NCBI GenBank assembly: GCA_002304435.1
Contig: NEUZ01000013.1
Coordinates: forward strand, 1 to 33,673
DNA: 33,673 nt
Direction: 5' to 3'
Source of the DNA: Opitutia bacterium Tous-C8FEB
GTDB taxonomy: Bacteria > Verrucomicrobiota > Verrucomicrobiia > Opitutales > Opitutaceae
The position numbers and the translations under genes were made by a program. The notes beneath the pieces were generated by a model. It ran no database searches and was not told the DNA's origin. It saw nothing but the letters and a program-made list of their open reading frames with translations. Within the stretch, counting starts at the first letter, position 1. Each line of letters begins with the position of its first letter. Shown piece after piece: positions 8,422 through 26,842 of this stretch.

Positions 8422-10602
8422 ATGGCCGACGAACCCCGTCCCCGGCCCGAGGGAGCCGACGCCGCGGCGCCGCTCCCCGCCCACATTGGCGGGTCACCGG
8501 GCCGCCGCCGGACGCCGGCCGAGCGGATGCCGGTCTATGCCTTGGTGGGCAATCCGAACTGCGGGAAGACGACCCTGTTCAATGCGCTGACCGGCCTGCG
8601 GCAGAAGGTGGGCAACTATCCGGGCGTGACCGTGGAGAAGAAGGTCGGTGAGACCTATTCCCAGCACGGCCACGCCATCAAGGTGATCGATCTGCCGGGT
8701 GCTTATTCGTTGGCCGCTAGGTCGCCGGACGAGGCCGTGACGCGGGATGTGTTGCTGGGTCGGCGGTCGGACACGCCGCAGCCGGACCGGATCATCTGCG
8801 TGGTGGACGCGTGCAACCTGGAGCGCTGCCTGTACTTCGTGCACCAGATTCTCGATCTGGGCCGGCCGGTAATCGTGGTCCTCAATATGATGGACCTCAC
8901 CGCGCGCTCTGGGCTGGAGGTGCGGGCCGCGGAGCTGGAGGAGGCTTTGGGCGTGCCGGTGATCCCGTGCGCGGCGGTGCAGGGCCGGGGGCTGGTCGAG
9001 TTGAGGTTGGCGATGAGCCGGCACGAGCTGCCTTTGGCGCGGCATTCGTGGACCGTGCCGGCGCCGATCGCCCCGGCGGTGGCAGAGTTGCAGGCCTCGC
9101 TGGTGGCAGCGGATGGGCGGCCGCCGCTGATTGCGCGGGCGGAGGCGTTACTGCTGCTGACCGATCAGGACTCCGTGCGGGTGGCTGGTTCGACCCCGCT
9201 GAGCGCGGCGACTGGAGCGGTACTGGAGAATTGGCGGCGGCGCTGGACGGGCCAGGGGACCGATTGGTCCGCGACCCTGATCAAGGCGCGTTACGAGGCG
9301 ATCCAAGGCCTGTGTCGGGAGGTGATCCGGCGGACGGGGGAGCGCGGGCCGTCGCTGGCGGACCGGGCGGATGCCGTGCTGGTCAATTCCGGCTGGGGCT
9401 GGCTGGCGTTTGGGGCGGTGATGGCGCTGATGTTCTACGCCATCTTCACGTTGGCGGAGCACCCGATGAACCTGATCGACGGGGCGATGGCGGGCCTGGC
9501 GGATCAGGTAAAGGATGCGATGCCGCCGGGCGATCTGCGGGACTTGGTGACCTCCGGGATCATCGGTGGGGCGGGGGGCGTGGTGATCTTCCTGCCGCAG
9601 ATCTTGATCCTGTTTTTCTTCGTCGGGCTGCTGGAGAGCACCGGCTATATGGCGCGGGCGGCGGCGCTGATGGATCGGCCGATGAGCCGGGTGGGGTTGC
9701 ACGGCAAGTCGTTCATTCCGCTGCTCGGTTCGTACGCGTGTGCGATCCCGGGCATTATGGCGACGCGGACCATTGAGAACGCGAAGGACCGGCTCGTGAC
9801 CATTCTGGTGGCGCCGCTGATGAGCTGTTCGGCGCGTTTGCCCGTGTATCTGCTGATGATCGCGACGCTGTTGCCGGGCGACGCGGTGCCGGCCGCGACT
9901 AAGGCCGGATTAATGTTTTTAATGTATGCGCTCGGCACGGCGGGGGCGTTCGGCTTCGCGTGGCTGTTCAAGCGGACCCTCCTGCGGGGCGAGGCGCCGC
10001 TGATGATTATGGAGCTACCGGCGTACCAGCGGCCCCATTTCGGCGAGATCCTGCGGCAAATGCTGGAGCGTGGCTGGCTGTTTATGAAGAACGCGGGGAC
10101 CATCATCCTCGCGATCTCGATCGTGCTGTGGTTCCTCAGCACCTATCCGAAGCATCCCGACCCGGCGGCGTCGGCCGAGGTCCAGATCGCGCACAGTTTC
10201 GCGGGGCAGGCGGGGCGGGTGATCGAACCGTTGATCCAGCCGCTCGGCTTCGATTGGCGGATTGGCATCGGGTTGGTCACCTCCTTTGCGGCCCGTGAGG
10301 TGTTTGTGAGCTCGATGGGCGTCATCTTCGGGGTGGAGGGGGCGGAGGACGACACGGCGCCGTTACGCGATGCCCTGCGAGCGGCGCACTGGCCGGATGG
10401 CGCGCCGCTATTTACCCCACTCGTGTGTCTGGCGCTGATGGTGTACTATGTCTTCGCAATGCAATGTATGAGCACCGTGGCGGTGGTGAAGCGGGAGACC
10501 AACTCGTGGCGTTGGCCGCTGTTCCAGCTGGCCTATATGACCGGCACGGCGTGGATCGTGACCTTTTTGGTGTATCAGGGCGGGCGGCTCCTGGGGTACT
10601 GA
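8422..10602 (+). CDS. feoB: Ferrous iron transporter FeoB
   Basis: FeoB is an inner-membrane ferrous iron transporter with an N-terminal G-protein domain. The product is 726 residues. About 35 residues of low-complexity, charged sequence precede the G domain, longer than in many FeoB proteins. G1 is GNPNCGKT at 43-50, followed by the switch region GNYPGVTVEKKVG at about 64-76, G3 DLPG at 90-93 and G4 NMMD at 155-158. The membrane domain contains two Gate (nucleoside-recognition-like) repeats, including FLPQILILFFFVGLLESTGYMARAA and the conserved SFIPLLGSYACAIPGIMATR, and the motif SCSARLPVYLL. A C-terminal helix ends the protein. It is followed after 4 nt by a Cys-rich small gene. Confidence 0.97.
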   Translation: MADEPRPRPEGADAAAPLPAHIGGSPGRRRTPAERMPVYALVGNPNCGKTTLFNALTGLRQKVGNYPGVTVEKKVGETYSQHGHAIKVIDLPGAYSLAARSPDEAVTRDVLLGRRSDTPQPDRIICVVDACNLERCLYFVHQILDLGRPVIVVLNMMDLTARSGLEVRAAELEEALGVPVIPCAAVQGRGLVELRLAMSRHELPLARHSWTVPAPIAPAVAELQASLVAADGRPPLIARAEALLLLTDQDSVRVAGSTPLSAATGAVLENWRRRWTGQGTDWSATLIKARYEAIQGLCREVIRRTGERGPSLADRADAVLVNSGWGWLAFGAVMALMFYAIFTLAEHPMNLIDGAMAGLADQVKDAMPPGDLRDLVTSGIIGGAGGVVIFLPQILILFFFVGLLESTGYMARAAALMDRPMSRVGLHGKSFIPLLGSYACAIPGIMATRTIENAKDRLVTILVAPLMSCSARLPVYLLMIATLLPGDAVPAATKAGLMFLMYALGTAGAFGFAWLFKRTLLRGEAPLMIMELPAYQRPHFGEILRQMLERGWLFMKNAGTIILAISIVLWFLSTYPKHPDPAASAEVQIAHSFAGQAGRVIEPLIQPLGFDWRIGIGLVTSFAAREVFVSSMGVIFGVEGAEDDTAPLRDALRAAHWPDGAPLFTPLVCLALMVYYVFAMQCMSTVAVVKRETNSWRWPLFQLAYMTGTAWIVTFLVYQGGRLLGY

Positions 10603-15882: not shown

Positions 15883-15901
15883 TTCTGGCTGGTTGCCCAC
15901 C

Positions 15902-15937
15902 CGCGATCCCGCCCGGCGGCTGGAAACCGGGATTGCG
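15902..15937 (+). other. 10-bp hairpin before the PQQ dehydrogenase gene
   Basis: CGCGATCCCG (15902-15911) pairs with CGGGATTGCG (15928-15937) over ten positions, one of them G-U, with a 16-nt loop. It ends 12 nt before ATG 15950, and the spacer CCCCGCGCGCCG resembles the one before the gene at 10850. No T-tract follows. Confidence 0.5.
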
Positions 15938-15949
15938 CCCCGCGCGCCG

Positions 15950-17413
15950 ATGCGTCTTCTCTCGACAGCTGTGATTACCCTTCCCCGCGTCCCCCTTGCC
16001 ACCGCGCTCGCGCTCGCTGGCGCTGCCGTGCTCTGCGCCGGCCAGCCCCGCCCCAACAATGTCGCCCAGCGTTACCAGCAGCTCTGTGCGAACTGCCACG
16101 GCGACAAGCTGCAGGGTGGCCAGGCCGGCTCGTTGCTGGACGACGTGTGGACCGCGGGGGCGGACGATGCCGCGATCGAGCGCAGCATCCGCCAAGGGTT
16201 TCCCGAGAAGGGGATGCCTGCGTGGGGCAGCGCAATCCCCGACAAGGAGATCCGCGCGATGGTGATTTATATCCGCGAGCAGCGGGCTTTGCACGCGGCC
16301 GGCCAGCTTAAGTTCGCCAAGCCGGCGGATTTTGTGACCGCTCGCAGCCAGCTGCACGAGTATCAGGTGTCGACGTGGGTCGGCGGGATGAAGGAGCCGT
16401 ACTCGCTCGCGTTCCTGAAGCCCGATCTGGCGATCGCCACCGAGAAGCGCGGCCACGCCTTTCTGATCGAGAAGGGCAAGTTGGCGCCACGGCCCCTGCT
16501 CGGCCTGCCCGCGGTCGATACTGGCGGTCAGGCGGGCCTGTATGACATCGTCCCGCACCCGGACTATGCGCGCAACGGCTGGGTTTACTTCGCTTTCAGC
16601 GATCCGCAGCGCAACGCCAAGGGCGAGCCCGTCAGCCTAACCCGCGTGGTGCGCGGTAAGATCAAGGACAATACTCTGATCGAGCAGGAGACCATCTACC
16701 AGGCGCGGATCGAGCATTACACCAAGGCGGGTGGCGTGCACTTTGGCGGGCGGCTGGCCTTTGACCGCGCTGGGTTCCTTTACCTCACGATCGGTGAGCG
16801 CGGCGGCAAGAGCGTGGCGCAGGACCTCGGCCTGCCCATCGGCAAGGTCCACCGCCTGCACGACGACGGTCGGGTCCCGGCGGATAACCCCTTCGTCAAA
16901 GACTCCAAGGCCCTGGCCTCCATCTGGAGCTACGGCCACCGCAACCCGCAGGGCCTCGCGTTCGAGCCGGGTACTGGGCGCCTCTACAGCACCGAGCACG
17001 GGCCCCGGGGTGGGGACGAGCTGAACTTGGTCGAGCGCGGCCGCAACTACGGCTGGCCGGTCATCACCTATGGGATGGAATACAGCGGAGACGCCATCAC
17101 CCAGATCACGAGCCAAGAGGGAATGGAGCAGCCGTTGACCTACTGGGTGCCTTCCCTCGCGGTGTGCGGGATCAGCTTCTACGAGGGCAATCTCTTCCCG
17201 CGCTGGAAGGGCCAGCTGTTCCTCGCGACCCTTGCGGCGCAGGAGCTGCGGCGGATCGAACTGCGGGACGGCAAGGTCGTGGCGCAGGAGGTGGTCTTCA
17301 AGGAGCTCGGTCGCATCCGTCACGTTGTGGCGGGTCCGGACGGTGCCCTTTACGCCCTGCTGCCGGAGCGCATCGCGCGCATCGCGCCCGCGGCGACCGT
17401 GGCCGCGCCCTGA
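15950..17413 (+). CDS. Exported cytochrome c-PQQ sugar dehydrogenase (GSDH/sorbosone dehydrogenase family) fusion
   Basis: From ATG 15950 the product is 487 residues with an N-terminal hydrophobic signal (about 8-31). A class I cytochrome c domain follows: CANCH at 46-50 binds heme, and Met89 in EKGMPAWG is the likely sixth ligand. From about residue 118 the protein matches the PQQ-dependent glucose/sorbosone dehydrogenase beta-propeller: GGQAGLYDIVPHPDY, GWVYFAFSD, HFGGRLAFD, YLTIGERGG, GKVHRLHDDGRVPADNPF, IWSYGHRNPQGLAFEP, STEHGPRGGDELN and NYGWPVITYGMEYSG. It should oxidise an aldose or similar sugar in the periplasm and pass electrons through its own heme to the respiratory chain. The upstream in-frame GTG/TTG region is rejected, since the signal peptide begins at 15950. 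Confidence 0.9.
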   Translation: MRLLSTAVITLPRVPLATALALAGAAVLCAGQPRPNNVAQRYQQLCANCHGDKLQGGQAGSLLDDVWTAGADDAAIERSIRQGFPEKGMPAWGSAIPDKEIRAMVIYIREQRALHAAGQLKFAKPADFVTARSQLHEYQVSTWVGGMKEPYSLAFLKPDLAIATEKRGHAFLIEKGKLAPRPLLGLPAVDTGGQAGLYDIVPHPDYARNGWVYFAFSDPQRNAKGEPVSLTRVVRGKIKDNTLIEQETIYQARIEHYTKAGGVHFGGRLAFDRAGFLYLTIGERGGKSVAQDLGLPIGKVHRLHDDGRVPADNPFVKDSKALASIWSYGHRNPQGLAFEPGTGRLYSTEHGPRGGDELNLVERGRNYGWPVITYGMEYSGDAITQITSQEGMEQPLTYWVPSLAVCGISFYEGNLFPRWKGQLFLATLAAQELRRIELRDGKVVAQEVVFKELGRIRHVVAGPDGALYALLPERIARIAPAATVAAP

Positions 17414-19577: not shown

Positions 19578-22500
19578 TCAGAACTCGAAGGAGTTCGTGA
19601 TCGTCCACTTGTTCGGCTGCGGGATGCGGGCGCTGGCGACCTGGCCGTTGGGTTGCGCCGTGACCCCGATCAGGTCCTCGCTGCCGAAGATGTCCCGGAT
19701 GTTCAGCTGCACGCTCCAGCGGACCTTGTCCGTGAGGAAGCGGCGGCCGTAGCGGAACCAGAGGTCGTAGTTGATCTGGGCGCTCCCGTAGTAGGGGCGG
19801 GTGACATCGTAGACCCAGGCCCCGGCGGCGTTCTGCTTGGCGGGGAAGCCGATGGCGACGCGGTCCTGCCAGCGGGCGGCGCCGCCGACGCTCCAGCCCT
19901 TGAGCGGGCCGGTGCGGAAGTCGTAGTTCGTCACCGCGTTGAAGCGCCAGCGGCGGAGCTCCTGCACTGGGGAGCCGTTGGCCGCGAGGGCGTTCAGGTA
20001 GGGCACGTACATATTGATGATCGCGAGGTTCCCGAGCTGCGAGGTCCCGAACGAGTTGAAATAGATGATATCCTCGAAGCCCTCCATCTCGCGGAGGTTC
20101 GTCGCCAGCTTGCCGTTGCCGTCGGTCCAGAGCGGCAGGTTGCGGTTGATGAACTCCGTGAAATCGGCCCCGACGTTGGCGCGGCTGGCCTCCTGGCGGG
20201 CGGCGTTGAAGGTGAGGCGCCAGTGCGGCAGCGGGTTGAAGGTCCCCTCGAACTCCCAGCCTTCCGAGACCGTGTCGGCGACGTTGCCCACGTTCGGCGG
20301 CCGGGTGGCGCTCCAGTTCCCGCCGTTGGGGGCCTGGGTGAAGTTCCAGGTCTGGGCGAGGAGCGGGTCAACCGGGCGGAGCCACTCCTCGCGGGTGCGC
20401 TGCGTGAACCAGAGGTTGCGCGCGGCGCTCTCGGCGGCGGTGAGCCCGGGGTTGAGCACGCCGGCCTGCGCGGGGTTCGTGAGGCTCGCGCGCAGCGGCA
20501 GGTAGCGCGGATCGGAGGGCGTGAAGCCGAACCATTTGTTGATCAGCACCTCGTTGGTATTGGAGCCGCGGAGGCCGTTCATCGCGCGGACCGTGTCGTT
20601 GCCGGGCCAGAACGTGTTGTAGAAGGTGGCGGAGTCATTCGTCTGGGTCGTGCGGTAGCGGTTCACGCGTAGGGTGAACTTCCGCTCGAGCGCGGAGAGG
20701 GTGATGCCGAGGTCCTTGGTGCGGCCGGCGGGCGGCGCGAAGGGGCGGCCGTAGACGTCGGCGATCGTCGATGAGGGGCGGAAGTTGCGGGCCTCGTTGT
20801 ACGAGAAGCTGACGTCGGTGCCGCGGGGCAGGCGGCGGCGGACCCAGTCGGGCGCGTGGAGCACGCCGCTCCAGCTCAGGGTCGAGTCCTTGGCGTAGAT
20901 CGTGGGCTTGGCCGGCAGGGTCCAGGCGGGATTGAACGGGTCGGTCTCGCCGGTGCCGGAGGCGAGGCGGGCGGGGCCGGCGTCGCGGAGGTCGAACTCG
21001 TCCTCACGCCAGCCGACGAGGCCGACCAGTTTGTCCCCGAGCAGGTAGCCCTGCCAGATGGCGGACTGGCTGCGGGTGCGGTTGGCGTTCTTGGAGGCGC
21101 CGGAGTAGAGTTTGCTGATGTCCCGCTCGTCGGCGGAAATCGTGGTGACGGGGACGCGGACCATCTGGTTCACGCGGGCATCGAAAAGCAGGGCGGTGCC
21201 GGCGGGCTGGGGCACGTGGAGGGCGGTGATGCCGCTGATGCCGGCCCCGGCGGGGGAGTTGAGCTGGGCGATGGAGGGCCCGAGGTAGTGGATCGCAGCG
21301 TAGGAGGGGTAGGTGGTGGCGGCGGGGTTGTTGGCGTAGGCGTTCACGTCGAGGCCATACGAGTACCCGTTGATGCTGCGGTTGAAGGTGGCGTTACGCT
21401 GGTCGGTCCAGTTGCCGGTGAACACGTGGCGGCCGAGGTGGCGCTGCCAGCCCGGGCGGCGGCGCAGGTCGAGCGTGGCGTAGGCGGTGGCGCGCTTGGC
21501 CTCGCGGGTGACCTCAGAGAAGTTGTTGCCGATCGAGTCGGAGGCGACGTAGGGCCGGCCGAAATTCGGATTGGGCGCGCCGTCGACGAGCTTCGTGTTG
21601 AAATCGACGAACAGCGTGTACGCGTCGAAGCCGAATACCCCGAAGTTCTCCCGGTTGAAGGTCTGGCGGTCGTAGGCCAGCTCGAGGCCGAAGAGGTCGC
21701 GCAGGAACGTCTGGCGGAAGGTGGCGTTCAGGGCGCGGAAGTCCGACTCCTCGCGCTTGTTGGGGCCGTCGAGGAGGACGTCGTAGAAGTTGAAGGTCGA
21801 GGGGTCGCGGATCTCTTGGTAGCGCCAGAGGCCGGTGTAGGCCTGCCCCGGGGGCGCGAACTGGCGGTTGAGGAAGAAGTTCGGGTTGTTGCCCTGGGCG
21901 GCGTAGGCGCCGATGGCGTACCACGAGACGAACGGCGTACCGCCGCGGCTGATCATAAACGGCGGGACGCCGTTGCCGCCTTGCGTGGCCGAGGCCGGGT
22001 CGGTGAAGACTGCGCCGATCTGGCCGAACCAACGGCCGGGCGCGCCGAGGTGCGCGAAGAGCAGGGGGTTGGTTGTGACCGCGGTGGGGTTGGTGGGGTC
22101 GACCGCCGCCTTGTTCAGCACGCTGTACCAGGCCGTGAGGCCGTCCTGCGGCGGGGTGGGGCGGGGGCGGTTCGAGCGCGTGTAGCCGCCCTCGTAGCTG
22201 ACCTGGAACTGGGTGAGGCCGTCGCGCACGAGCCGCGGCTCCCATTTCGCGGTCACGAAGGCGCGGCGGTCATCCTCGAAGGCCGGCTTCTGGCGGTAGC
22301 CCTCGGCCTTATTCAGAGCAATGAAGCGCACGCCGAGCCGACCGGCGACGACGGCCTGATTTACGTCGAGGACCTCGCGGTGGCTGCCGAAGCGCCCGAT
22401 CGCGCTGCTGAAGGCCCAGCTGTTGCGGCCGAGCTGCGCGGACTTGAGCTGGTTGTTGATGATGCCGGCGGGGCTGCCGAGGCCGAAGAGGATCGCGTTG

Positions 22501-23006
22501 GCGCCGCGGGAGATGTCCACCCGCTCCGTGTTGTAGGAATCCAGCGGGATGTTGGTGAGGAAGAAGTCCCGCGTGAGATCGGCGCCCGCGAGGCCGCGCA
22601 CGCGCGTGGAGTTTTGGGGGCTTTGGAGCAGCGACTCGGCGCTCGAGAAGCGGTTGCCGGTGTCGACCCCGGAGAAGTTACCCTCGAAGCCGCCGGCCTC
22701 GGTGTTCGTGGTGTAGACGAGAAAGTCGCGCGCGTTGGTCGAGCCCGTGTCCAGGAGGAACTGGGACGTCACCACCGAGATGGCGGCGCCGACGTCACGG
22801 AGGTCCGTGCGCAGGCGGGTGCCGGCGAGGGTGGAGGTGGCCGCGTAGCCGCGGTCTTGGGCCTCCTCGACCACGAACGGGCTGAGCGTGAGGGGAACGT
22901 CATCCGCGGCGGTGGGCGGGCGCGGCGCGGGCACGGTCTGGGCGCGAAGGGCGGCGGGGAGGCACAGGACGGCCGCCACGAGGAGGCGGGGCAGGGTGGT
23001 CTTCAT
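19578..23006 (-). CDS. TonB-dependent outer membrane receptor
   Basis: This 1142-residue protein has a Sec signal peptide (MKTTLPRLLVAAVLCLPAALRAQ), then a short linker with LTLSPFVVEE (about 39-48), a motif that recurs near the N-terminus of Opitutaceae receptors and may serve as a TonB box. The plug domain follows (about 60-180: RTDLRDVGAAISVVTSQFL, and RVDISRGANAILFGLGSPAGIINN, the typical plug end). The remainder is a long strand-rich barrel with many aromatic residues, ending NSFEF, a standard C-terminal Phe outer-membrane signal. No carboxypeptidase-like N-terminal domain is seen. It imports a siderophore, metal chelate or glycan-derived ligand using proton-motive force via TonB; the ligand cannot be deduced. 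It is transcribed with or after the kinase gene and ends 12 bp from the convergent helicase gene. Confidence 0.92.
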   Translation of the reverse strand: MKTTLPRLLVAAVLCLPAALRAQTVPAPRPPTAADDVPLTLSPFVVEEAQDRGYAATSTLAGTRLRTDLRDVGAAISVVTSQFLLDTGSTNARDFLVYTTNTEAGGFEGNFSGVDTGNRFSSAESLLQSPQNSTRVRGLAGADLTRDFFLTNIPLDSYNTERVDISRGANAILFGLGSPAGIINNQLKSAQLGRNSWAFSSAIGRFGSHREVLDVNQAVVAGRLGVRFIALNKAEGYRQKPAFEDDRRAFVTAKWEPRLVRDGLTQFQVSYEGGYTRSNRPRPTPPQDGLTAWYSVLNKAAVDPTNPTAVTTNPLLFAHLGAPGRWFGQIGAVFTDPASATQGGNGVPPFMISRGGTPFVSWYAIGAYAAQGNNPNFFLNRQFAPPGQAYTGLWRYQEIRDPSTFNFYDVLLDGPNKREESDFRALNATFRQTFLRDLFGLELAYDRQTFNRENFGVFGFDAYTLFVDFNTKLVDGAPNPNFGRPYVASDSIGNNFSEVTREAKRATAYATLDLRRRPGWQRHLGRHVFTGNWTDQRNATFNRSINGYSYGLDVNAYANNPAATTYPSYAAIHYLGPSIAQLNSPAGAGISGITALHVPQPAGTALLFDARVNQMVRVPVTTISADERDISKLYSGASKNANRTRSQSAIWQGYLLGDKLVGLVGWREDEFDLRDAGPARLASGTGETDPFNPAWTLPAKPTIYAKDSTLSWSGVLHAPDWVRRRLPRGTDVSFSYNEARNFRPSSTIADVYGRPFAPPAGRTKDLGITLSALERKFTLRVNRYRTTQTNDSATFYNTFWPGNDTVRAMNGLRGSNTNEVLINKWFGFTPSDPRYLPLRASLTNPAQAGVLNPGLTAAESAARNLWFTQRTREEWLRPVDPLLAQTWNFTQAPNGGNWSATRPPNVGNVADTVSEGWEFEGTFNPLPHWRLTFNAARQEASRANVGADFTEFINRNLPLWTDGNGKLATNLREMEGFEDIIYFNSFGTSQLGNLAIINMYVPYLNALAANGSPVQELRRWRFNAVTNYDFRTGPLKGWSVGGAARWQDRVAIGFPAKQNAAGAWVYDVTRPYYGSAQINYDLWFRYGRRFLTDKVRWSVQLNIRDIFGSEDLIGVTAQPNGQVASARIPQPNKWTITNSFEF

Positions 23007-23888: not shown

Positions 23889-24998
23889 ATGCGCTCCCCG
23901 TCCCTCCCGCGTTGCCTGTTCCTGCTGGCCGCCCTCGGCCTCGCGCCCTTGCCGGCGGCCGATAAGTCCCCCGCCGACGCGGCCTTCGAGGCGGCCCGCA
24001 CCGCCATTGTAACGTCCAATCCCGAGGGCGAGCCGGCCCTCGCGGCGGGTTTTACGTTCCTGCTGGGGTTCCCGGACGATTCCCGCACGCGCGGGCTTTT
24101 GCCGGCCCTCGAGGCCCTCGCGGAACGCTTGCCGGAAGCGGCTCGCGCCGGCTACCGCGCCGCCTACGCGCAGCGCATCGAGGCGGCCCTCGCGCGCAAG
24201 GACCTCCCGCCGGCGGCCCGCGAGGGCATCCTCTCGGGAATCGCCTCGGCTGCGCTGAGCCGGCAACTCGACGCCGAGCAGCCGGACCCCGCCGCCCTGG
24301 CCGGACCCCTGCGTGCGTTGGAAGAGCAGTTCCCCACCTCCCGCGCCTTGCCCGCGTTGCGCCTGGGCGAGGCGAAGCTCCTCGCCGCGCGTGACCCGGA
24401 GGCCGGTCTCACGCGGATGCGCGCCCTTGCTGCCAGTCCCGATCCTGAGGTCGCGCGGCAAGCGGCGGCTGAAGTGCGGATGGTCGACCTGCGGACGAAG
24501 CCGCTCGACCTGAAATTCACCGCCGTCGACGGGCGCGAGGTGGATTTGGCGAAGCTCCGCGGCAAAGTTGTCCTGATCGACTTCTGGGCCACGTGGTGCG
24601 GCCCCTGCATCGCCGAGCTCCCCAACCTGCTCCGCGTCTACGAGCAGTATCACCCGCAAGGGTTCGAGATCGTCGGGATCTCCTTCGAGAATTCCGGCGT
24701 CGTCGACGAGGAGACCCGCCGCAACCCCCGCAACGCCGGCCGCTCGCTCGACACCCCGGAGCAGGCCGCGGCCAAGCTCGCGGCCGCGCGGCAGAAGCTC
24801 ACCGACTTCACGCGGGACCGGAAGATGCCGTGGCCGCAGCACTTTGACGGTCGCTACTGGGACAACGAGTTCGGCCGGCAATTCAACATCCGCAGCATCC
24901 CCGCGATGTTCCTCCTCGACCGGGAGGGGCGCATCGTCGACACGAACGCGCGCGGCGCGAAGCTGGAGCCGCAGGTGCGCCGGCTACTGGGTCTGTAA
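23889..24998 (+). CDS. Exported TlpA-like thioredoxin-fold protein
   Basis: From ATG 23889 the product is 369 residues with a Sec signal peptide (MRSPSLPRCLFLLAALGLAPLPAA). Residues about 25-200 are an Ala/Leu-rich helical region that may form helical repeats. Residues about 205-369 are a thioredoxin-like domain of the TlpA/AhpC-TSA type: LDLKFTAVDGREVDLAKLRGKVVLIDFWATW, then WCGPC at 236-240 as the redox pair, the FEIVGISFEN strand, an insertion, and RSIPAMFLLDREGRIV with the cis-proline. It probably reduces or shuffles disulfides, or reduces a bound cofactor, in the periplasm. Its stop codon overlaps the start of the next gene (TAATG), so it is translationally coupled to the caspase-like lipoprotein, which it could keep reduced and active. 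Confidence 0.87.
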   Translation: MRSPSLPRCLFLLAALGLAPLPAADKSPADAAFEAARTAIVTSNPEGEPALAAGFTFLLGFPDDSRTRGLLPALEALAERLPEAARAGYRAAYAQRIEAALARKDLPPAAREGILSGIASAALSRQLDAEQPDPAALAGPLRALEEQFPTSRALPALRLGEAKLLAARDPEAGLTRMRALAASPDPEVARQAAAEVRMVDLRTKPLDLKFTAVDGREVDLAKLRGKVVLIDFWATWCGPCIAELPNLLRVYEQYHPQGFEIVGISFENSGVVDEETRRNPRNAGRSLDTPEQAAAKLAAARQKLTDFTRDRKMPWPQHFDGRYWDNEFGRQFNIRSIPAMFLLDREGRIVDTNARGAKLEPQVRRLLGL

Positions 24999-26842
24999 TG
25001 GTGAACCGACCGGCGCAGACGCGGCGGGAATTCCTACGCCTCGGCCTCGCCGGCGTCGGGGCGGTGCCGTGGCTGGCCTCGGGTTGTGCGGGTCCGGGCG
25101 CGGGGCTGTTGGCGCCCGCGGACGGCCCCGCGGTCTTCGTGATCCTGTCGGGCGGCGGCACGCCCCTGACCAACAATTACTCGCAGTACCTGCAGGCGCG
25201 CGCGTGGGCCGGGTGGCTGGCGCGGACCCGGCCGGCGGCCCCGCGGTGGTGTTTCTTCGGGGTGGGCAACCGCGAGGGCTCCCCGGCGGTGCTGGCGGAC
25301 ACCTACCGCGAGGTGGAGCGCGACGGCGGTTACGAGCCGGAATGGCTGCCGGGATTCCTCCCGGACAACCGGCCCGCGACCCGCGAGTCCCTCTTCCGCG
25401 CCCTGCGCGAGGAGATCCTGCCCGTGGTGCGCGGGGGTGGCACCCTGTTCCTCCTCGTGGGTGACCACGGCGAGCTGTCCGGCCGCGACGCGGCGCAGGA
25501 GAGCGCGATCACGATGTGGCAATTGAAGCGCGGCGGCCGCCAAGGCTGGCGCACCGACAACAGCGAGGTGCTCGGCGTCGCGGACCTGCGGCGGGAGCTG
25601 GCGGCGGGCCTCGGCCGCGGCCGCGTGGTGTTCGGGATGACGCAGTGCCATTCGGGCGGATTCCACGAGCTGGCCGTCCCGCGCGTCCTGGTGCCGCCGC
25701 GGGCGTGGTTCAGCCGCGATCCGGAGGGCATCGCCGGCCGCCCCGCGCGGCTGCAACTGGCGGCAGCGGGGTTCACGGCCACGGATCAGGCCTCGCCGGC
25801 GGCGGGGTGCGAACCCGACCCGGAGCCGGACCGCTGGGCGGGGTACGAGCGGTTCTTTCCGGAGGCGCTGCTCGGGTCCGACCTGATGACCGGTGTCGTC
25901 CGCGGCGCGCCGGCCCCTACGCTCGACGCCGCCCACGCGGCGGCCGTGCTGGTCGACCACACCATCGACAAGCCGCGGTCGACCTCCGAGCACTATCTGG
26001 AGGCGTGGGCCCGCCTGATTGAGGAGCGGCTGGCGACCACCCTCGCGATCACCGAACCGGTCCAGCGGGCCGTGGTGGCCTTCCAGCGGGCCGTGGACAC
26101 GGGCGAGGCGGAGGTCGCGGATCCGGGCTGGGTGGCGTTGCGGGAGCGGTACGGTCGTTTCCAGGCCGCGCTGATCGCACAGCTGCCGACGGGCCGGGCG
26201 CTCCTCCAACTCGGCGACCGCCGGCGGCTCACCGCGGCGTTGCGGCCGGTGGCCGAACCCGCGCGGGACCCCGGGGCGCGGCGGCGGAACGCGCTCACCG
26301 CGGCCCGCCGCGCGTGGAGCGCCACTCTGCGCCCGGCGTGGAAGGCGGCGGTGGAGGCGGACCGCGTCCCTGGTCTGGGCGGGCCCGCGCGGGACTTTGA
26401 ACGGCACCTGCTGCGGCTGGAGGACGAGGGGCGGAGCCTGCTCCTCGGCCGCCGCGACGGCGAGGCGCTGCTGCAGGAGGTCTATTGGCGCTCCGGCTAC
26501 GCGCAGCCGGGATCCGTGGAGCCGGCGGCGGCCCGCGCCGTGGCGCGCTGGGGCGTCGCGCGGCGGGAGCGGATCGCTGAGTGGGGCCGCACGGTGGCCG
26601 ACCCGGCGGTGCGCACGGCGGCCGAGCAACTGGCGGCGGTCCCGCCGCCGGAGATGCCAGCGGGGCCCGGGCTCACGCTGCCGATCGCGGCGGAGCGCGT
26701 GCTGTTCCAGCGGAGGGTCCTCGCGGCGTGGCGGTTCCTGCTGGAGGTGGGTCACGCGCCGGCCCTCGCGGAGCTGGCGCAGTTGCGCGCGTTGGAGATC
26801 ACCCCGCTGCCGCCCGTGGGGGCCGGCGTCCCGGCAGCCTGA
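24998..26842 (+). CDS. Tat-targeted lipoprotein with clan CD (caspase/legumain-like) cysteine peptidase domain
   Basis: The 614-residue product opens with a twin-arginine motif (TRREFLRLG, residues 8-16) and a hydrophobic stretch ending in a lipobox-like LASGC (Cys30), so it looks like a Tat-exported lipoprotein. The next 200 residues follow the clan CD pattern: a strand with VFVILSGG (about 46-53), an ordered set of helices, FLLVGDHGE with the predicted catalytic His157, and VVFGMTQCHSGGF with the predicted nucleophile Cys217. FTATDQAS follows, resembling the 'a.s.a.d.' strand after the Cys in C13/C14 peptidases. The last roughly 300 residues are Arg/Ala-rich and helical and match nothing I recognise. 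Overlap with the thioredoxin-like gene suggests a functional pair. The peptidase call is motif-based; substrate specificity is unknown. Confidence 0.68.
   Translation: MVNRPAQTRREFLRLGLAGVGAVPWLASGCAGPGAGLLAPADGPAVFVILSGGGTPLTNNYSQYLQARAWAGWLARTRPAAPRWCFFGVGNREGSPAVLADTYREVERDGGYEPEWLPGFLPDNRPATRESLFRALREEILPVVRGGGTLFLLVGDHGELSGRDAAQESAITMWQLKRGGRQGWRTDNSEVLGVADLRRELAAGLGRGRVVFGMTQCHSGGFHELAVPRVLVPPRAWFSRDPEGIAGRPARLQLAAAGFTATDQASPAAGCEPDPEPDRWAGYERFFPEALLGSDLMTGVVRGAPAPTLDAAHAAAVLVDHTIDKPRSTSEHYLEAWARLIEERLATTLAITEPVQRAVVAFQRAVDTGEAEVADPGWVALRERYGRFQAALIAQLPTGRALLQLGDRRRLTAALRPVAEPARDPGARRRNALTAARRAWSATLRPAWKAAVEADRVPGLGGPARDFERHLLRLEDEGRSLLLGRRDGEALLQEVYWRSGYAQPGSVEPAAARAVARWGVARRERIAEWGRTVADPAVRTAAEQLAAVPPPEMPAGPGLTLPIAAERVLFQRRVLAAWRFLLEVGHAPALAELAQLRALEITPLPPVGAGVPAA

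Follow-up and report, generated by a model that had tools for sequence, protein, structure and literature searches.

The window, by which we mean the whole 33,673-nucleotide stretch of DNA that was analysed, comes from a bacterium of the Opitutaceae and contains two overlapping genes, one for a predicted exported thioredoxin-like protein with a WCGPC motif (P0001) and one for a lipoprotein (P0002) that is likely a clan CD peptidase related to family C13 (Table 1). The reductases that recur upstream of the peptidase gene in related genomes suggest a link, as yet unproven, between this peptidase and thiol reductases. The reading as a whole, namely a C13-related peptidase of the envelope that would be kept supplied with reductant by the WCGPC protein or by DsbD, is one to which we give about even chances.

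Table 1. Coordinates of the gene pair, of the predicted parts of its products and of other features in the window.
Feature	Position	Strand	Remarks
Thioredoxin-like gene P0001, WCGPC	23889-24998	+	369 aa
Parts of P0001	23889-24998	+	Signal peptide (by eye), N-terminal region of ~180 residues, redoxin domain with WATWCGPC
Lipoprotein gene P0002	24998-26842	+	614 aa; likely clan CD peptidase domain, related to C13, followed by a helical C-terminal region
P0002 export signal	24998-25087	+	TRREFLRLG (Tat-like); lipobox LASGC ending in Cys30
P0002 putative catalytic domain, residues 43-347	25124-26038	+	Contains N59, H157, C217, C271; from alignments, HHalign to C13 and model
His157 codon	25466-25468	+	Candidate of catalytic dyad; invariant 27/27
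Cys217 codon	25646-25648	+	Candidate nucleophile; invariant 27/27
Cys271 codon	25808-25810	+	Second invariant cysteine; 27/27
P0002 helical C-terminal region, residues 350-608	26045-26821	+	Predicted helices; possible prodomain
FeoB-type ferrous iron transporter	8422-10599
Glucose/sorbosone dehydrogenase domain fused with cytochrome c domain	15893-17410
TonB-dependent receptor plug protein	19578-23006	-	Opposite strand to the pair; adjoins the pair in G015 too (L074)

The gene pair

The junction of P0001 and P0002 reads TAATG, and both frames and the single shared base are present as the initial annotation had described them. The overlap was compared in the four nearest relatives that have the pair: G009 also shows TAATG, and G010, G015 and G021 show a two-base GTGA overlap when GTG is taken as the start. 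Purifying selection acts on the lipoprotein gene: its dN/dS is 0.050/0.433 against G010 and 0.055/0.565 against G015 (564 codons).

From its sequence, P0001 is predicted to be a TlpA/ResA-like exported thiol-disulfide oxidoreductase, given that an export signal (recognised by eye) and a redoxin domain with a CxxC motif are both present. Two Pfam models match it above their cut-offs (Redoxin, 1.1e-16; AhpC-TSA, 1.7e-15); the NCBIfam ResA model gives 1e-19, yet its 71.1 bits are below the cut-off of 170. The WATWCGPC motif is found in the five copies of the clade, and reduction of the partner lipoprotein is a candidate activity of P0001.

Conserved residues and signals of the lipoprotein

The two residues proposed earlier as a dyad, His157 within LVGDHGE and Cys217 within MTQCHSGG, lie at the positions claimed, and N59, H157, G158, C217 and C271 are unchanged in all 27 aligned homologues (21 full-length sequences, four full sequences from more distant sources and two near copies that are partial). 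Because this invariance includes three homologues that are only 24-27% identical to the domain of the window, the H157 and C217 motifs are not due to chance. Across the 21 aligned full-length sequences 37 positions are invariant, these five among them. Moreover, past residue 36 the sole cysteines of L018, L025, L026 and L027 are C217 and C271.

The twin-arginine signal and the lipobox read from P0002 itself are both there (Table 1), but inspection of the alignment by eye showed the complete TRREFL motif in no clade other than that of the window, so that the full Tat motif is apparently not a feature of the lipoprotein family. An RR pair without the full motif occurs in L015, L018, L022, L023 and L029, whose start codons are uncertain, and the signals of these copies, again judged by eye, look like Sec lipoprotein signals. 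All 18 full-length Opitutaceae copies keep the lipobox Cys30; in the full-length distant copy of G555 no clear lipobox was found in the alignment. The helical C-terminal region, which the initial annotation had also pointed out, consists of predicted helices and is kept in all 18 aligned full-length Opitutaceae copies. A C-terminal end shared with the distant relatives, noticed by eye, was dropped as a candidate, with 0.3% in HHalign and no detectable homology.

Relationship to peptidase family C13

Searched alone, P0002 found no match in Pfam, PDB sequences or NCBIfam at an E-value of 10. The earlier interpretation was upheld in part. Its clan CD reading is supported by a profile-profile match to C13 and by the dyad kept in 27 of 27 sequences, the window protein itself being unmatched by PF01650; its redox partnership stays conjectural. 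A comparison with HMMs of clan CD families had been proposed as a check, and here too P0002 itself was unmatched, but three distant relatives matched PF01650 below its cut-off (L033, 3.7e-4; L034, 0.057; L035, 0.0026), two of them also carrying a weaker unrelated match. The PF01650 match was absent from L029, which was scanned alongside, and no C13 match was found in L089 of G315, a close relative of the three. A profile built from the three distant relatives alone retrieved both the window protein (6.3e-8) and a G283 protein (7.3e-7), and the latter exceeds the PF01650 cut-off (38.1 bits versus 22.8).

The alignment by HHalign of 18 Opitutaceae catalytic domains with four Pfam-recognised C13 domains (L092, L094, L102 and L103) gave 94.7% and an E-value of 5.9e-8, which is the value for one comparison, with SGGG..N, His-Gly and Cys-x-[SA]-G-G aligned between the two groups. 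Five unrelated families used as controls (thioredoxin, DsbD, helicase, aldo-keto reductase and M16) gave 0.1-3.9%, and a second, divergent PF01650 set (L096, L098 and L100) gave only 4.0%. We place P0002 next to C13 within clan CD, outside the legumains.

No C14 Pfam match was found in P0002, L029, L033, L034, L035 or L089, and no PF01650 match at 1e-5 in the window's own genome (G000). Profiles of 21 rows and 3 rows matched PDB sequences at chance level only, viral contigs scanned twice yielded no relative of the lipoprotein, and a tblastn search of plasmids with the G283 C13 domain gave no match. PF01650 was recorded in one of 188 genomes of the class, one of 14 control genomes and 10 of 95 genomes of the order of G283. 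The C13 domains of L092/L095 (G283), L094, L102 and L103 lie in very large open frames of 1790-3113 aa from another order of the phylum.

As to the putative active site, we take N59 to be the catalytic Asn found at this position in C13. C271 presumably aligns with a Cys of the legumain S1 region; a Cys at this place is absent from the four C13 sequences compared. In the 27 sequences, position 215 (two before Cys217) is T, V or A, position 61 is Y, V, I or L, position 62 is S or Q, and no Arg is present within three residues after N59. The acid two before the Cys is E in the C13 sequences L092, L094, L102 and L103, and the residues of the plant legumain S1 pocket were taken from the accessible part of PMC5995516. 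Legumain specificity of P0002 is unlikely, because P0002 lacks this acid, and an Asn/Asp-specific peptidase activity is conjectural. GPI8 represents a transamidase/ligase branch of C13, and P0002 might, like GPI8 and the plant-ligase branches, be a transamidase or peptide ligase that attaches or processes surface proteins; the replacement of the C13 S1 acid by T, V or A at position 215 would agree with this. The accessible part of PMC5995516 describes legumain as a dual protease-ligase, but there is no positive sign for ligation over proteolysis in P0002, and we consider a ligase very improbable.

Structure models

The models were built from alignments of just 7 and 8 rows, with a mean pLDDT of 53.8 and a pTM of 0.38 for full-length P0002, and of 49.3 and 0.54 for the catalytic domain. 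The C-terminal region is modelled as helices, and 15 of its 27 ten-residue blocks have a pLDDT of 71-91. In the low-confidence domain model, His115 and Cys175 (model numbering) come shortly after the predicted strands 107-112 and 167-172, respectively.

When the domain model was searched against the PDB with Foldseek, legumains took ranks 1-3 and 5-8, an enoyl reductase took rank 4 and caspases came lower. The top matches were 4d3z (E 0.019, probability 0.85) and 4awb (E 0.030, probability 0.87); TM values were about 0.3 and none of the matches reached an E-value of 0.001 or below. For the full-length model, unrelated proteins headed the list and no match was found at 0.001; the highest listed probabilities (0.57-0.63, E 0.22-0.36) belonged to three legumain chains. 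The legumain-led list of the domain model agrees with C13 homology and falls short of proof. Models of such low confidence, together with an activity that we infer, would also suit a non-catalytic lipoprotein of caspase fold, but the invariance of H157 and C217 in 27 of 27 sequences argues against it, and we find this reading scarcely credible.

Distribution of the lipoprotein gene

A match to the lipoprotein was found in 26 of 95 related genomes: 20 of the 27 genomes of the window's genus (its own included), three elsewhere in the family and three in the order's other families. When 384 genomes sampled from the class were searched with a profile, 8 matched, among them the window's own and, weakly, G632 and G655, and a profile of three distant members matched 4 of 387 genomes sampled from the phylum, again with the window's own. 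It follows that the lipoprotein gene is frequent within a single genus and rare outside it. The assembly of the window comprises 2.17 Mb and is 70% complete.

Upstream neighbours of the peptidase gene

The upstream neighbours were tallied in 20 assessable Opitutaceae from the 26 matching genomes. G007 (a remnant) and G019 and G051 (whose contigs begin at the peptidase) were left out, and the distant G061, G077 and G086 were counted apart; tblastn placements were preferred over antisense calls of a simple gene finder (e.g. L072, L074 and L081). The co-occurrence of the pair, for which a survey had been suggested, proved to be partial: in 7 of 20 genomes (G000, G009, G010, G015, G021, G003 and G056) the WCGPC gene is the immediate upstream neighbour, in the same orientation. 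The first five of these form one close clade. In G003 a gap of ~230 bases separates the WCGPC gene from the peptidase gene, and the upstream copy of G056 is a shortened one of 247 aa, with an uncertain start of the peptidase.

A divergently oriented gene for DsbD, a thiol reductant of the membrane, is directly upstream in seven genomes (G001, G013, G014, G018, G020, G024 and G025), DsbD being called by PF11412, PF02683 and Thioredoxin_7 in the G013 representative and by similarity to the G013 protein elsewhere. A redox link is favoured because DsbD thus occupies the upstream position in another 7 of 20. An M16 peptidase, recognised in both cases, is directly upstream in G012 and G026, and G006, G008, G023 and G043 have other upstream neighbours. 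Neither reductase adjoins the peptidase in 6 of the 20 genomes, and for the more distant members the ORF lists show no evident reductase neighbour.

These six genomes fit a rival explanation that we entertain tentatively, at rather less than even chances, in which P0002 is a C13-related peptidase of the envelope and its reductase neighbours result from shared locus ancestry and from the abundance of TlpA-like genes, with no functional dependence. On the peptidase tree, constructed without the partial copies of G009 and G021, the DsbD label requires one change (support 76/82, not firm) and the WCGPC label two; the seven DsbD-adjacent cases may be one event, as independence would have it. In the same direction, G005 is without the peptidase, and its DsbD adjoins the aldo-keto reductase which in G001, G003 and G025 borders the peptidase; the peptidase thus seems to be an accessory to a locus that stands without it. 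A search of 30 genomes found DsbD in 26, with or without the peptidase, so that DsbD is not tied to the peptidase; DsbD was not found in G010, G019, G051 or the window's own 70% complete assembly, the last of which also favours independence.

Each of 27 genomes of the genus has 6-42 matches to the redoxin family, and each of 30 genomes has 0-3 matches to DsbD, in most cases one. By a post-hoc estimate that assumes one gene per kilobase, the chance that a given upstream slot is filled is ~0.2-0.5% for a redoxin gene and ~0.02% for DsbD. Chance adjacency becomes easier because the peptidase locus of G003 and G056 is a run of P0001-family genes. Independence is likewise consistent with the alternation of such genes with TonB receptors and with the P0001 homologues of G012 (63%) and G043 (52%), which are on contigs other than that of the peptidase; P0001-family genes also lie near TonB receptors in G043 and G056, again on other contigs.

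Against independence stand three observations: two different reductive thiol systems fill the upstream slot in separate lineages, the coupled overlap is retained in two forms across five genomes, and a single apparent deletion in G007 took most of both genes. The G007 remnant joins residues 1-36 of the WCGPC protein (50% identity; E 1.2e-5 when one locus was searched) to residues 534-614 of the peptidase (77%), which reflects either a joint loss of the two genes or an assembly error at this place.

Some further features of these loci were recorded. In L070 502-20000 (G056) and L071 102-9781 (G003), TonB-dependent receptors alternate with P0001-family redoxin genes of the WC[GV]PC type; an M16 peptidase occurs once in these runs, and the G003 run ends in the peptidase gene. 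The G007 remnant lies at L163 7169-6858, and the adjacent kinase also looks fragmentary. A shared ancestral locus, considered on account of a helicase near DsbD (L076, L080-L082) and in the window, was dropped, the 12 kb stretch of G015 being without the helicase.

Proposed function

In the reading that we prefer, with a peptidase dependent on reductases, P0002 would be a lipoprotein anchored in the envelope. Its first half would be a divergent cysteine endopeptidase of clan CD, related to C13, with a specificity pocket that probably differs from that of legumain. The helical C-terminal half may be a legumain-like inhibitory or stabilising domain, and could thus autoinhibit proteolysis. P0002 would need a reducing supply because its nucleophile sits outside the cytoplasm. 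Judging from the neighbourhood, C217 might be reduced by the co-translated WCGPC protein in the window's clade and by DsbD or its clients elsewhere; the protection of single envelope cysteines through DsbD is a precedent. The task of P0002, the weakest step, would probably be the turnover of envelope or captured extracellular protein, for which the M16 peptidases and TonB receptors near the peptidase in some relatives provide a context.

A more elaborate version, which we regard as improbable, is a redox-switched envelope peptidase in which a C217-C271 disulfide would be inactivating and electrons from DsbD, passed through a co-translated or neighbouring TlpA-like protein, would activate the enzyme. 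If so, protein digestion would follow the redox state of the envelope.

Comparison with known systems

With C13 (PF01650), P0002 shares SGGG..N, His-Gly and Cys-x-[SA]-G-G, in the same order and with the last two each following a strand. It differs from C13 in that it is unmatched by PF01650, is a predicted lipoprotein, lacks the acid two before the Cys, belongs to a family without an Arg in the three residues after N59, and carries a C-terminal region of ~260 residues without detected relatives. This helical region is reminiscent of the C-terminal prodomain of legumain, which, according to the accessible part of PMC4357240, controls the zymogen and autoinhibits prolegumain. Caspases and metacaspases (C14) have in common with P0002 the His-Cys dyad and, presumably, the clan CD fold, but no C14 Pfam match was found in the six members scanned. 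The gingipains (C25) and RagAB offer a parallel, with a clan CD cysteine peptidase at the envelope and, in some relatives of P0002, TonB receptors nearby; however, they belong to another family and the resemblance is an analogy only.

The accessible part of a clan CD review (PMC12445089) names eight families, and the group of P0002 is not among them. Among the matches listed in a search of the open-licence literature, no such peptidase-reductase pair was described, and nothing joined peptidase C13 with Verrucomicrobi. P0002 would stand for an unrecognised bacterial branch beside C13 that the Pfam model misses.

With the TlpA/ResA/DsbD systems the likeness lies in P0001, which is of redoxin type, and in DsbD adjoining the peptidase in seven genomes. 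The clients of these systems include cytochrome c maturation, DsbC/DsbG and others, and we know of no clan CD peptidase among them. At the level of the genome, the recurrent neighbours would connect a cysteine protease located outside the cytoplasm with DsbD/TlpA as a reducing system, and the gene pair would make testable a practical question, namely how a catalytic thiol is kept reduced in an oxidising compartment.
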